This document shows positions 41,712-51,618 of a stretch of DNA of 64,000 nt, piece by piece. The stretch is from Agreia sp. Leaf210 (GTDB lineage: Bacteria; Actinomycetota; Actinomycetes; Actinomycetales; Microbacteriaceae), in assembly GCF_001421485.1 (NCBI RefSeq), contig NZ_LMKK01000001.1, positions 811,717 to 875,716 on the forward strand, in the 5' to 3' direction. The position numbers were made by a program, and so were the translations under genes. Each line of letters starts with the position of its first letter. Position 1 is the stretch's first letter. Under the pieces are notes generated by a model, which did not search any database, was not told where the DNA came from, and was given only the letters and a program-made list of their open reading frames with translations.

Positions 41712-41780
41712 ACTCAGGCAGAACCGCTCTGCTGCGTACGAGGACGTCGCTTTCGGCCCGCTTCTCCTGAATCAGAGCGG
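41712..41780 (+). repeat. Palindromic repeat, copy D (remote copy)
   Basis: ACTCAGGCAGAACCGC (41712-41727) and CTTCTCCTGAATCAGAGCGG (41761-41780) are diverged inverted ends matching the family around the second DUF559-type gene at 49-50 kb. The stop codon of the adjacent ATPase-like gene lies inside it. Confidence 0.6.
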
Positions 41781-47587: not shown

Positions 47588-48634
47588 TTATCCAGACGAC
47601 GGTGCAGCCGATGAACCGCGCACGACGAGGGTCGGAAGAATGCTTCCTGAATATTCCTCGCCCGCCTCGAGCCCGCCTAACAGCAACGCCATGCAGCGCC
47701 GGCCGAGCTCGGCGAAGTCCTGCCGCACGGTGGTGAGCGGGGGCCAGAAGTGTGCCGAATCAGGAATGTCATCGAAGCCGACGATGCTGACGTCTCGCGG
47801 CACCTCGAGGCCGCCGTCGCGGATCGCATGCATGAGCCCCAGCGCCATCTGGTCGTTCGCCGCGAAGATCGCCGTGAAGTCGCGCATGCGCAGCAGCTCG
47901 CGCCCCGCGAAGTAGCCGAACTCGGCTGTCCAGTCGCCCAAGATAGGTGCCGTCGTCGGCATATCTTGCGCGTTCATCTCGTCGAGAAAGCCTGTCATGC
48001 GGGCCTCGGCCTCGATCCAGTCCTGTGGACCGGCGAGGTGGTAAATGTACCTGTGCCCAAGCTCGATGAGGTGGCGGGTCGCCAGGCGCGCCCCCGTGAT
48101 CTGATCGACCGACAGCGACTTGTCGTTCTCGGTGCCCGTGGATTGCAGCGTGACGATCGGCAAGCGCAACGACATGCCCGCAAGGGTGTCGAACACCCGG
48201 CGCTGCGGCGCGATCACGACCAGACCCTCGATCGCCTGGTCGAGCAGGCGGTCGATGGCGCGCACGATCGAGGTGGACTCGTAGCCGCTGATGCTGGCCG
48301 TCGTGACCGAGTATCCGGCCGCACTGGCCGCATCCTCGATGGCTTGAATACTGGCGGCGGGGCCGTACATCGTGCGCGAGGCAGACAGGATGCCGATGGT
48401 GCGGGAGCGAGACGTGACCAGCGCACGCGCGGCCCGGTTGGGCCGGTACTGCAGCTGCTCCATGGAGTCGAGCACCCGCTGCTTGGTCTCTTCACGGATG
48501 TTCGGCAGGTCGTTGATGACGCGCGAGACGGTCTGATGCGAGACCCCGGCGAGGCGCGCCACATCGTGCATGCTCGGGGCCCGTGACTTCTTCGCCACCG
48601 GCTCGGGATCCTTTGCCACGCGTTCAAACCTCAT
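47588..48634 (-). CDS. LacI family repressor of the monosaccharide transporter
   Basis: 348 residues. The helix-turn-helix (SMHDVARLAGVSHQTVSRVIN, about residues 21-41) and hinge (YRPNRAARALVT) are canonical, and the sensor domain ends with SIVGFDDIPDSAHFWPPLTTVRQD. It lies upstream of and in line with chvE. A 16-bp site in its own leader and the matching perfect palindrome in front of chvE make a simple autoregulated sugar-sensing circuit. The ATG at 48634 is 2 bp from the operator. Confidence 0.94.
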   Translation of the reverse strand: MRFERVAKDPEPVAKKSRAPSMHDVARLAGVSHQTVSRVINDLPNIREETKQRVLDSMEQLQYRPNRAARALVTSRSRTIGILSASRTMYGPAASIQAIEDAASAAGYSVTTASISGYESTSIVRAIDRLLDQAIEGLVVIAPQRRVFDTLAGMSLRLPIVTLQSTGTENDKSLSVDQITGARLATRHLIELGHRYIYHLAGPQDWIEAEARMTGFLDEMNAQDMPTTAPILGDWTAEFGYFAGRELLRMRDFTAIFAANDQMALGLMHAIRDGGLEVPRDVSIVGFDDIPDSAHFWPPLTTVRQDFAELGRRCMALLLGGLEAGEEYSGSILPTLVVRGSSAAPSSG

Positions 48635-48784: not shown

Positions 48785-48905
48785 GGTGGTGCGCGGGCTT
48801 CGGTAGGCGGTGCGCGCGGGCTTCGGTAGGTAGCGCTGGGCCTCGGTAGGTGGTGCGCGGGCTTCGGTAGGTGGCGCGCCGGCCTCGGTAGGTGGCGCTG
48901 GGCGC
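48785..48905. repeat. Degenerate tandem array, unit about 21 bp
   Basis: CGGTAGG recurs at 48801, 48824, 48844, 48865 and 48886 (steps of 23, 20, 21 and 21 bp) inside a repeated GGGCTTCGGTAGGTGGTGCG-like unit. It looks like a minisatellite rather than CRISPR, as there are no spacers. Confidence 0.85.
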
Positions 48906-48948
48906 GGTTCGGCGGTTGTCCTGCACTCGCCCGATGCCGCCGCCGCCC

Positions 48949-49020
48949 GTATTCAGGAAAAGCGCGCCCAAACCGCGCTTTTCGCCCTCGACGCACCAGT
49001 TTTTCCTGAATTCGAGCGCG
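48949..49020 (+). repeat. Palindromic repeat, copy A
   Basis: ATTCAGGAAAAGCGCG (from 48951) and GTTTTTCCTGAATTCGAGCG (from 48999) are inverted ends about 60 bp apart. Inner sequence is similar to copy B. Confidence 0.75.
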
Positions 49021-49116
49021 GCCCGCCGCCGAACACCTCGGCACGACGGCACTACATCACGCAGGCAGCTGACACGGATGAGTACTTCTCTCAGCCGACG
49101 CTCCACCCGCCGCCTC

Positions 49117-49196
49117 CGCTCCAATTCAGGAAGAACGCGCCGAAACCGACCTTTTCGCACGCCGCTCCCTGGCTCTCCCTGAATAAGAGCGCGCGC
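49117..49196 (+). repeat. Palindromic repeat, copy B
   Basis: ATTCAGGAAGAACGCGC (from 49124) and CTCCCTGAATAAGAGCGCG (from 49175) match the ends of copy A, and the interior CGAAACCGACCTTTTCGC lines up with copy A as well. Confidence 0.75.
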
Positions 49197-49268
49197 TCCC
49201 CTCCGCCACCGCAGCCGATCACGTTAATCGCTCCACAGATCCGCCTCACAGGCCCCCGACGCGTCTGC

Positions 49269-50240
49269 GTGGCGGCAACCATCATTCGCATGAACAGACC
49301 CCGCGGCCACATCGTCGCTCGAAAAGAACTCCTCGCCTTCGGCATGACGCATCACTCGATAGCCCGTGCAGTTACCCGTGGAGAGCTGCTTCGTCTGCGA
49401 CGAGGGTGGTACGCAACGCCCGGTGCGGCGCCCCTCGCAATGCGCGCCGTCACCGTGGGCGGCGTGGCCACGTCGCTCTCTGCGGCCGAAGTGATCGGAC
49501 TCTGGTCACCGCCCGACTCCACGCTCCATGTCGCCGTTCCGACCAACGCCAGCAGGTTGCGAGGCGGTGTATCCCAGCCATCGCGGCCAGGCAGGACAGC
49601 TCCACTGCAGCCGCAAGGAAGCTCGGTCTCGAAGCGCGTCTGCCTGCACTGGCGCACGCACCGGGACTCACCGCGCGACGGCGTCGCGTCGGTGATCGAC
49701 GCACTGATCGATACGGTGCAGTGCCAGCCCGAGGAGTATGCCGTCGTTGTCATCGACTCCGCCTTGAACCAAGGCCTCCTCACCCTGCGTCAGCTCGAGT
49801 CGGCATTCGCGCGCCTCCCCCGACGCTACGTTCGCGCATTCAGCCGCGCCGACGCGCGAAGCCAGTCAGGCACCGAGACCCTCGTTCGGCTACGGCTTCG
49901 AGCCCTCGGCCTTCGCGTCTCTGTTCAGGTGCGAATCTCCGAGGTCGGATACGTCGATTTGATCATCGGCGACCGCTTCGTTCTGGAGTGCGACAGCAAG
50001 AAGTTCCACACCGGCCAGGAACGCTATTACGCGGACCGCCTTCGCGACCGCACGCTCATCAGGCTCGGCTATCTGCCCATGCGACTCACCTACGAGATGG
50101 TCATGTTCGACTGGCCGGAGACCCTCGAGACGATCCTCTCCCGCGTTCGGCGAAGAGAGCACTTATGGCCGCGGCGCTCTAAAACAGGAAAAACCGCCTC
50201 TCGCCGTGCGAAAACGCACGAGGAGAACGGTTTTTCCTGA
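49269..50240 (+). CDS. AbiEi/DUF559-type protein with Vsr-like endonuclease fold (copy 2)
   Basis: 323 residues; the same two-part build as the gene at 28989-29942. The N-terminus is a winged-helix-like AbiEi domain (VARKELLAFGMTHHSIARAV, then RLRRGWYATPG). The C-terminal part has GYVDLIIGDRFVLECDSKKFH and YADRLRDRTLIRLGY, the D...ExD/K pattern of Vsr-like nucleases. The start is GTG at 49269 or ATG at 49290. The last 19 codons run through palindromic copy C, which provides the stop. No toxin partner is next to it; the nuclease role is inferred. Confidence 0.75.
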   Translation: MAATIIRMNRPRGHIVARKELLAFGMTHHSIARAVTRGELLRLRRGWYATPGAAPLAMRAVTVGGVATSLSAAEVIGLWSPPDSTLHVAVPTNASRLRGGVSQPSRPGRTAPLQPQGSSVSKRVCLHWRTHRDSPRDGVASVIDALIDTVQCQPEEYAVVVIDSALNQGLLTLRQLESAFARLPRRYVRAFSRADARSQSGTETLVRLRLRALGLRVSVQVRISEVGYVDLIIGDRFVLECDSKKFHTGQERYYADRLRDRTLIRLGYLPMRLTYEMVMFDWPETLETILSRVRRREHLWPRRSKTGKTASRRAKTHEENGFS

Positions 50241-50250
50241 ATTACAGCGG
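50185..50250 (+). repeat. Palindromic repeat, copy C (at the gene end)
   Basis: CAGGAAAAACCG (50185-50196) and CGGTTTTTCCTG (50228-50239) are perfect 12-nt arms, with an inner GTGCG-AAAA-CGCAC hairpin. The right end, TTTTTCCTGAATTACAGCGG, matches copy A. As RNA this is also a strong terminator-like hairpin for the gene. Confidence 0.8.
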
Positions 50251-50360
50251 CAGAAGCAGCAGAAGCAGCGGCGGCGGCGGCGGCGGCAAAGCAGCAGTAG
50301 CTACGGCAGCACCAGCAGCAGTAGCTACGGCAGCACCAGCAGCAGCGGCTGCTGCTGCCG
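50251..50360. repeat. Triplet-rich tract with a 24-bp tandem duplication
   Basis: CAG/CGG triplets (50251-50290) are followed by two copies of a 24-bp unit starting CAGTAGCTACGGCAGCACC (50295-50318, 50319-50342) and a CAGCAGCAG-CGG-CTGCTGCTG hairpin (50337-50357). It lies after the desaturase stop and may act as its terminator. Confidence 0.8.
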
Positions 50361-50365
50361 AGCGA

Positions 50366-51481
50366 CTAGCGCCCGAACGCCTGCGCTGCCGGGCAGTCGA
50401 AGGGATCTCCGCCGGCCGAGAGACCCACACGGTTGAGGTAGCGGATCACGATGCCGTACGACTGACGCAGACCGGTCTCGGTGTAAAGGATGTCGTGCTT
50501 CTCGCAGTATTCCTTCGCGATGGCCTGAGCCTTTTTGAGGTTGGGGCGCGCCATGTTCGGAAAGAGGTGGTGCTCGACCTGGTAGTTGAGACCGCCCATG
50601 AACGTGTCCATGACGAAGCCGCCGCGGATGTTGCGCGAGGTCAGCACCTGACGACGCAGGAAGTCGACCTTGCTGTCGTGCGGCAGAGTCGGCATTCCCT
50701 TGTGGTTGGGAGCGAAGGACGCGCCCATGTAAACACCGAAGACGGCCAGCTGAACACCGATGAAGGCGAACGCCATTCCGGGCTCGAGCAGCAGGAAGAT
50801 GACGAGCACGTAGGCCGAGATGCGCGTGGTGAGCATCACGATCTCGAGCCAGCGCTTGTCGACCTTGCCCTTGCCGAAGACGGTGCGGAAGCCGTGGATG
50901 TGAAGGTTGAGACCCTCGAGCATCAGGATCGGGAAGAAGAAATATCCCTGGCGCTTGGTGGCCCAGGCGTAGAGGCCGCGCGACTTGGCCGCGTCTTCGG
51001 GCGTGAACGACACGAAGTCGCGCTCGATGTCGGGGTCTTTGCCGAGCACGTTCGGGTTGGCGTGGTGACGCGAGTGCTTCGTCATCCACCACGAGTAGCT
51101 GATGCCGACGAAGAGGTTGGCGAGCGTGCGGCCCGCGATGTCGTTGGCCTTGCCCGAGGTGAACACCTGGCGGTGCGAGGCCTCGTGAGCGAGGAAGGCG
51201 AACTGCGTGAAGATGATGCCGAGCGCGGCAGCCATCAGCAGCTGGAACCAGGAATCGCCCAGCAGAACGACTCCGACGCCCACGCCGCCGAGCGCTGCGA
51301 GCAGCACACCGAACATGGCGTAGTAGAAACCCTTGCGGCGGCGAAGAAGGCCGGCATCGCGAACGGTGTTGAGCAGCGAAGAGTACTCGCTGGTCGGGCT
51401 GGTGCGCGCACCACCCGGCTTCGTCTTGGTGAATGTAATGCGCGGTTTGACTGTGTCGGTCACAAGGCCCCTCTCGGCCAT
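50366..51481 (-). CDS. Membrane fatty acid desaturase
   Basis: 371 residues. The three histidine boxes that bind the di-iron centre are present: HEASH (about residue 100), HSRHH (about 138) and QVEHH (about 305). Four hydrophobic spans lie between. There is no cytochrome b5 domain; electrons must come from a separate reductase/ferredoxin. Acyl-lipid desaturases of this type control membrane fluidity, often in the cold. I use the ATG at 51481 with GAGGG upstream; a GTG six codons later, preceded by GAGAGGGG, is a real alternative. Confidence 0.92.
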   Translation of the reverse strand: MAERGLVTDTVKPRITFTKTKPGGARTSPTSEYSSLLNTVRDAGLLRRRKGFYYAMFGVLLAALGGVGVGVVLLGDSWFQLLMAAALGIIFTQFAFLAHEASHRQVFTSGKANDIAGRTLANLFVGISYSWWMTKHSRHHANPNVLGKDPDIERDFVSFTPEDAAKSRGLYAWATKRQGYFFFPILMLEGLNLHIHGFRTVFGKGKVDKRWLEIVMLTTRISAYVLVIFLLLEPGMAFAFIGVQLAVFGVYMGASFAPNHKGMPTLPHDSKVDFLRRQVLTSRNIRGGFVMDTFMGGLNYQVEHHLFPNMARPNLKKAQAIAKEYCEKHDILYTETGLRQSYGIVIRYLNRVGLSAGGDPFDCPAAQAFGR

Positions 51482-51618
51482 CGGGCCCTCGCAGGGCAGC
51501 AAGACAACCAGGTTCTAGGGGTGACTTGCTCTCACTCTAGGGGGCGTGGGCAGCGATCCACGGATCGGGCCACGGATGCACGGTCTTTGGGTAGAGAATT
51601 GCCAGCCCAAGGGATTGA

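Follow-up and report, generated by a model that had tools for sequence, protein, structure and literature searches.

Can a nuclease of a class unrelated to the known enzymes of extragenic palindromes form a unit with a palindromic repeat of its own, and perhaps move it? This question is raised by a 64,000-nucleotide stretch of DNA from Agreia sp. Leaf210 (hereafter the window), in which the gene for a predicted AbiEi-type/PD-(D/E)xK nuclease is bracketed by members of one palindrome family (Table 1). To our knowledge, HUH RAYTs are the dedicated enzymes of extragenic palindromes in bacteria. Among the matches listed for open-access PubMed Central, judged by title and start of the abstract, none linked a DUF559/AbiEi-type nuclease to palindromic repeats.

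The initial annotation of the window had placed three palindromic units around the gene, two 5′ and one 3′ of it, and a further one 7 kb away, and all four were located. Their palindromic nature was borne out; the size, given there as 65-80 bp, had to be corrected to a core of exactly 61 bp in 4/4 window units, with no more than 2 mismatches in the two 9-bp ends taken together. An inverted outer flank (GCGCTC / GAGCGC) extends the conserved family A unit to ~77 bp. Units of 61 bp were absent from 20 first-order shuffles of the window, and an Rfam search of the window yielded nothing beyond one tRNA. The 3′ copy includes the TGA stop codon of the nuclease gene and codes for the last residues of the protein. 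The left ends are imperfect in this copy and in the solo copy. When single-strand folding was compared with shuffled sequences, 5/8 units folded far better (z −6.1 to −8.5) and 3/4 window copies showed weaker folding (z −1.4 to −3.5). The individual values are −3.5 and −3.1 for the upstream copies, −8.1 for the 3′ copy and only −1.4 for the solo copy, which hence folds poorly. Two other repeats adjoin the locus, namely short imperfect GCGCGGGCTTCGGTAGGT-like repeats with ~20-23 bp spacing just 5′ of the first palindrome (48789-48916) and an AGC/GGC-rich tract immediately 3′ of the last one (50246-50360).

Table 1. Coordinates of the palindromes, the nuclease gene and its neighbours in the window, and of the cassette at rimM-trmD (given by locus).
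Feature	Position	Strand	Remarks
Family A palindrome, outer upstream copy	48951..49011	+	61 bp core; 48943-49019 with GAGCGC-type flanks
Family A palindrome, inner upstream copy	49124..49184	+	
Family A palindrome, 3′ copy	50182..50242	-	inverted relative to the upstream copies; holds the nuclease stop codon
Family A palindrome, solo copy	41712..41772	-	directly after a histidine-phosphatase gene
Family A nuclease gene	49269..50240	+	N-terminal AbiEi_4-type DNA-binding domain; C-terminal MTES_1575/DUF559 domain (PD-(D/E)xK, Vsr-like)
LacI-family regulator	47591..48634	-	neighbour, syntenic marker, outside the unit
Fatty acid desaturase	50369..51502	-	neighbour, syntenic marker, outside the unit
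rimM-trmD cassette	L041 1290-2464		orthologous in L036, L039, L040, L042, L043, L045, L046

The DNA-binding-like N-terminus and the Vsr/PD-(D/E)xK-like C-terminus previously recognized in the protein agree with its matches to AbiEi_4 and MTES_1575/DUF559. In the protein scan, AbiEi_4 passed its cut-off (25.8 bits, cut-off 25), and MTES_1575 (33.1 bits, cut-off 38.2) and DUF559 (19.8 bits, cut-off 20.6) fell just short; in the genome scan, DUF559 scored above its cut-off (22.3) and MTES_1575 below (35.5). It is solely through this domain match that the window nuclease resembles Vsr, the very-short-patch enzyme, which nicks at mismatches and usually goes together with a cytosine methylase. The nuclease proteins have a conserved stretch VDL...ECDS..H in common, which we take to be the likely active site. 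As judged from dN/dS values of 0.13-0.22 in seven comparisons among the five Agreia A orthologues, the A gene is under purifying selection. The AlphaFold model (pLDDT 43.6) was too poor for use, the search of solved structures returned six weak, unrelated matches only (best E 0.13), and NCBIfam and PHROGs gave zero matches.

Eight Agreia genomes (G000-G007) constituted the genus sample. An end-motif scan found the A gene bracketed by family A palindromes in five of the eight, that is, in 5/5 orthologues. The orthologues of the window gene in G001, G002, G004 and G005 share 70-81% identity, and the locus has the same neighbours in all five genomes. Strict vertical conservation had been named at the outset as an observation that would speak against a mobile pair, and this synteny comes close to it; known RAYT genes are likewise vertically inherited. 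A paralogue, present in G003, G004 and G006 (3/8), is bracketed by palindromes of a second family, B (59 bp), at another locus common to all three, and its protein is 46-48% identical to the window protein (G003, G004). In G006 the B nuclease is frameshifted (L037) and in G004 it carries an E-to-K exchange in the likely catalytic motif (L038); B palindromes are still numerous in both genomes.

Copies were counted in the eight genomes with covariance models as strand-matches, in which one palindrome can count twice. Family A gave 30, 58, 52, 31 and 50 strand-matches in the genomes with the A gene (G000, G001, G002, G004 and G005, respectively) and 0, 9 and 0 in those without it (G003, G006, G007). 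Family B gave 38, 26 and 39 where the B gene is present (G003, G004, G006) and 14, 8, 0, 6 and 2 where it is missing (G000, G001, G002, G005, G007), corresponding to 19, 13 and 20 versus 7, 4, 0, 3 and 2 distinct sites. By these counts, copy number tracks the cognate nuclease gene in this one genus, a contrast drawn from eight related genomes with few independent transitions. Clustering of copies at DUF559 genes had been proposed as a check in the initial annotation; most copies are solo, away from any DUF559 gene. Since the five A copies printed for G006 look genuine, palindromes can exist without their gene. Family A gave no match in G003, in contrast to the 31 strand-matches of the closely related G004; this may be due to a quick loss of copies after gene loss, or to gain in G004.

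The Y1_Tnp model (PF01797; RAYT/IS200) matched 0/8 Agreia genomes and 5/14 control genomes. This bears on the idea of an insertion sequence, with the palindromes as transposon ends, the transposase elsewhere and the nuclease as cargo. Family A copies on the two sides of the nuclease gene do stand inverted to each other, and two A copies bracket a GNAT acetyltransferase gene in G000 (L006 1500-2242), with an equally spaced pair in G005 (L250 1408-2150). Against this idea speak the 0/8 result for Y1_Tnp, the transposase class that was looked for, and the fact that palindrome type goes with nuclease type; we consider an insertion sequence very unlikely. The acetyltransferase gene shows that bracketing is not confined to the nuclease, and other bracketed genes would be missed because loci were searched outward from the nuclease.

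Where the solo copies lie was assessed for those among the fetched loci, with genes predicted by a composition rule and two weak G007 matches included in family B. Inside predicted genes we found 0/17 A and 4/20 B copies, compared with 67% and 82% of random places. Between convergent genes lay 12 of the 16 extragenic B copies and 6 of the 17 A copies; few sampled solo copies sit between divergent genes. One could regard the palindromes as AbiEi-type operators serving autoregulation, and the solo copies as a regulon or as borrowed terminators. AbiEi proteins recognise inverted repeats located 5′ of the operon that encodes them, and the preference of B copies for the space between convergent genes is typical of terminators. 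Such a regulatory role would however leave the sharp-ended dispersal described below unexplained. It also fits poorly with units of ~50-100 bp that are nearly fixed in length per type and stand 3′ of the gene as well, with the scarcity of sampled copies between divergent genes, and with the absence of an AbiEii partner from both genes flanking the window nuclease. We regard it as improbable.

If the units were mobile, occupied and empty sites might differ by exact insertion of one unit, as had been proposed. No clean case, and no target duplication, was found among the A and B sites compared between Agreia genomes. The solo copy of the window occupies the same position in G001, G002, G004 and G005. 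It was considered as a candidate empty site in G003 and rejected: the right-hand end persists there, pointing to a deletion instead. Another A site carries a copy in G005, G002 and G001 but lacks it in G000, G003 and G004, with spacers too diverged to place a boundary. At four B sites compared between G003 and G004, one copy is shared, one has decayed in G004 and two are absent together with larger stretches. In batches selected by extrapolated colinearity, 1/4 A pairs and then 0/10 could be aligned. The absences look like decay or deletion.

A different kind of variation was observed between rimM and trmD, where flank homology places a palindrome-nuclease-palindrome cassette at one position in 8/8 Agreia genomes (the identity of the flanks was checked with Pfam on the G003 locus). 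Among G000-G005, which represent six species, the upstream DNA shows 93-98% identity. The nuclease alleles form groups that cut across these species: G000/G001 (83% identity), G002/G003/G006 (74-82%) and G004/G005 (81%), with G007 apart and 48-58% identity between groups, or 50-58% when the six species alone are compared. Palindrome length, arms or interior follow the allele group, with 61 bp in G004/G005 and 59 bp in the others. In the pair closest by its flank, G003 and G004 (98%), successive 100-bp intervals are 95-99% identical as far as position 1200, the first interval excepted, 42-75% identical over 1201-2400 and 80-98% identical thereafter. The G003 palindromes lie at 1308-1366 and 2349-2407, hence identity falls at the upstream palindrome and recovers near trmD. 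Because this drop spans the cassette and the palindromes follow the allele group, nuclease and palindromes change together. Among the comparisons made, such co-switching is the strongest single argument that the two would form one unit. The vehicle of the switch could be ordinary flank recombination or an old polymorphism; even within one allele group, the divergence of the cassette outpaces that of the flanks. A TrmD-like motif also occurs near three loci of other genera (L180, L183 and L186; motif match only).

The same locus invites a comparison with homing, in which a selfish gene would cut alleles devoid of its own palindromes and be copied in as a cassette by repair. The palindromes would then mark or protect self, and dispersed copies would be by-products. 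Trans-species allele groups at rimM-trmD, the fall of identity at the upstream palindrome with its return near trmD, and the existence of damaged copies (the frameshifted B gene of G006 and the E-to-K exchange in G004) are all in line with homing. By itself, though, it accounts neither for the dispersed palindromes, of which a genome may have as many as 34, nor for a copy number that tracks the nuclease, and we judge it unlikely.

Bracketing was then surveyed in the Microbacteriaceae, a family of bacteria from soil and plants, with profile A5, composed of the A and B proteins, which matched 53/80 genomes at E<=1e-15. From these and other searches, 54 loci outside Agreia were available: 28 best-of-genome loci drawn from the 51 non-Agreia genomes with an A5 match, which are the least biased part; 19 loci from eight genomes selected for the AATGCAGGA pattern (see below), a biased set; and seven from a phylum-wide profile. 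A strict arm test asked for the same arms on both sides (12-nt arms, >=10 matching). Matching palindromes on both sides were found at 36/54 homologues, covering Microbacteriaceae and three loci beyond, that is, at 17/28, 15/19 and 4/7 in the respective sets, and the test failed at the remaining 18/54; a few pairs, such as L179 and L230, are weak with a high G+C content. Cross pairs matched in 38/648 cases, a number of which are real but related types, and random 900-bp Agreia segments away from A and B nucleases had pairs in 2/600 cases. Within Agreia, 14/30 loci passed, fragments included, and 16/30 failed. The failures include all five A loci (0/5) because their copies are imperfect, and bracketing of A is thus taken from the end-motif scan. 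A CAGGA-like core is common to many arms. A plain upstream-downstream alignment was dropped as a measure on account of outliers in its cross-pair control (95th percentile 23, 99th 91, maximum 171); own pairs exceeded the 95th percentile in 21/28 cases and the 99th in 0/28.

The palindromes also appear specific to their nuclease. Within ten genomes, own pairs matched at 29/35 loci and cross pairs in 8/100 cases, a count made without the A loci and without genomes G001, G006 and G007. The more alike two nucleases are, the more similar are their arms (Mantel r 0.231; 0/2000 permutations as high). This comparison covers 51 loci at which a pair was found, two of them (L053, L234) being one place, and shared ancestry alone could explain part of the correlation. 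The reverse position, that a palindrome family unrelated to the nuclease flanks an old gene by chance, the two being inherited together, may draw on the A locus and the window solo copy keeping their positions and on the A copies at the acetyltransferase gene. It hardly deserves credence given the different palindrome types that bracket paralogues at different loci in many genera, the 2/600 random segments and the way in which palindrome and nuclease switch jointly at rimM-trmD. Genome comparison makes it very likely that the nuclease-palindrome association is genuine and holds generally across Microbacteriaceae, if not for every homologue. The link that the initial annotation had drawn from position has gained bracketed orthologues and paralogues, copy number, the 0/8 Y1_Tnp result and co-switching.

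A further palindrome type is dispersed as well. The pattern AATGCAGGA-N45..75-TCCTGCATT occurs at 1-34 sites each in 10/80 genomes and at none in the other 70; the reversed pattern, used as a control, gave 0 in 80/80. Five of these ten genomes (G016, G036, G044, G055 and G083) have a nuclease bracketed by this type or a near variant, and in the other five no nuclease bracketed by it was found among the loci fetched. No nuclease was found in 20 stretches surrounding copies of AATGCAGGA (G065, G067, G048) with a profile that recovered 8/8 known loci. In G044, eight of 16 sites were read, seven of them solo and one beside the nuclease; they have ~87 bp in common, with sharp ends beyond which the flanks are unrelated. 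In G036 the boundaries are harder to place, since some of the copies share a longer repeated stretch. Near-identical palindromes also stand in close pairs ~180-230 bp apart in G036 (L264 414/593, L265 496/722), suggesting local duplication.

Beyond the family the evidence for bracketing is thin. The phylum-wide profile, with at most nine candidates scored per genome, matched 4/246 genomes at E<=1e-15; its three loci outside the family comprise two weak pairs and one without a pair. Four plasmid records contain homologues, two of them annotated as AbiEi antitoxins. The Actinomyces oris locus is bracketed, by a unit not found in other plasmid records, and the Tsukamurella loci are not (0/3). Phages yielded one unbracketed homologue fragment, and the 49 pattern matches in viral contigs included no relative.

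Bracketing, pair specificity, the dispersal of some types and co-switching at a locus are demonstrated here by comparison of genomes. We consider it probable that they reflect a REPtron-like or homing-like cassette, in which a sequence-specific PD-(D/E)xK nuclease and its cognate palindrome form one unit. Binding, cutting and mobilisation by the nuclease, including the mobilising role first suggested for it in the window, are what we infer. The AbiEi-type N-terminal domain would bind the arms of the cognate palindrome, and the Vsr-like PD-(D/E)xK domain would nick or cut the palindrome itself or DNA close to it, perhaps upon hairpin extrusion. Once cut, the palindrome could be repaired or copied; solo copies would thereby be seeded at other extragenic places, and the entire cassette could take the place of its counterpart at a fixed locus. 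Palindromes of their own are seen for many of the nuclease lineages, and paralogous pairs coexist in one genome. There is an even chance, in our estimate, that AbiEi-type/PD-(D/E)xK nucleases generally are dedicated, HUH-independent mobilisers of a large, undescribed palindrome superfamily, co-diverging with their palindromes and swapping as a unit. The findings suggest a selfish DNA system of a new kind, whose enzyme differs from the known ones.

If this is true, extragenic-palindrome systems arose at least twice, with unrelated enzyme classes. Proteins now annotated as antitoxins or without function would obtain a testable role, dozens of putative cognate pairs would be at hand for deriving recognition rules, and what moves palindromic repeats without a known transposase would become a testable question.

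Several known systems share single features with the cassette. The AbiEi antitoxins of type IV toxin-antitoxin systems have the N-terminal domain in common with the window nuclease, which differs by its C-terminal nuclease domain and by the lack of an adjoining AbiEii gene. The nuclease domain family is shared with VsrA, a DUF559 Vsr-like protein of Caulobacter crescentus, which is reported to be needed for the SOS response in the absence of the ScmA methylase and was proposed to act in mismatch repair at methylated sites (PMC12907096); the main text of that paper contains no word with the stem 'palindrom'.

Among palindromes, a 2013 survey associates GTAG REPs with RAYTs and describes CGTC-tagged REPs, found mostly in Alphaproteobacteria, with an 8-9 bp stem and a 4-5 nt loop, that 'apparently lack a dedicated transposase' (PMC3733652). 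The units described here resemble these CGTC REPs as portrayed there in being extragenic palindromes, and the outer flank of several B copies is CGTCACTA or near to it. They are nevertheless much longer (~50-100 bp) with long interiors, and CGTC is found only in some B flanks. Speculatively, DUF559 enzymes could be candidate mobilisers of the alphaproteobacterial CGTC REPs.

The closest likeness is in organisation, to the REPtrons, described in part in the same survey (PMC3733652). The nuclease gene has palindromes of its own on either side and keeps its place through inheritance, solo copies are extragenic, several type-specific pairs occur per genome, and units may overlap the end of the gene. 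In contrast, the enzyme here matches the MTES_1575/DUF559 and AbiEi-type models instead of an HUH/Y1 enzyme (Y1_Tnp in 0/8 genomes), and the units, many with the CAGGA-like core, exceed the 20-40 bp of a single REP. Lacking the HUH feature, the Agreia cassette is outside the REPtron family, though organised like a REPtron.
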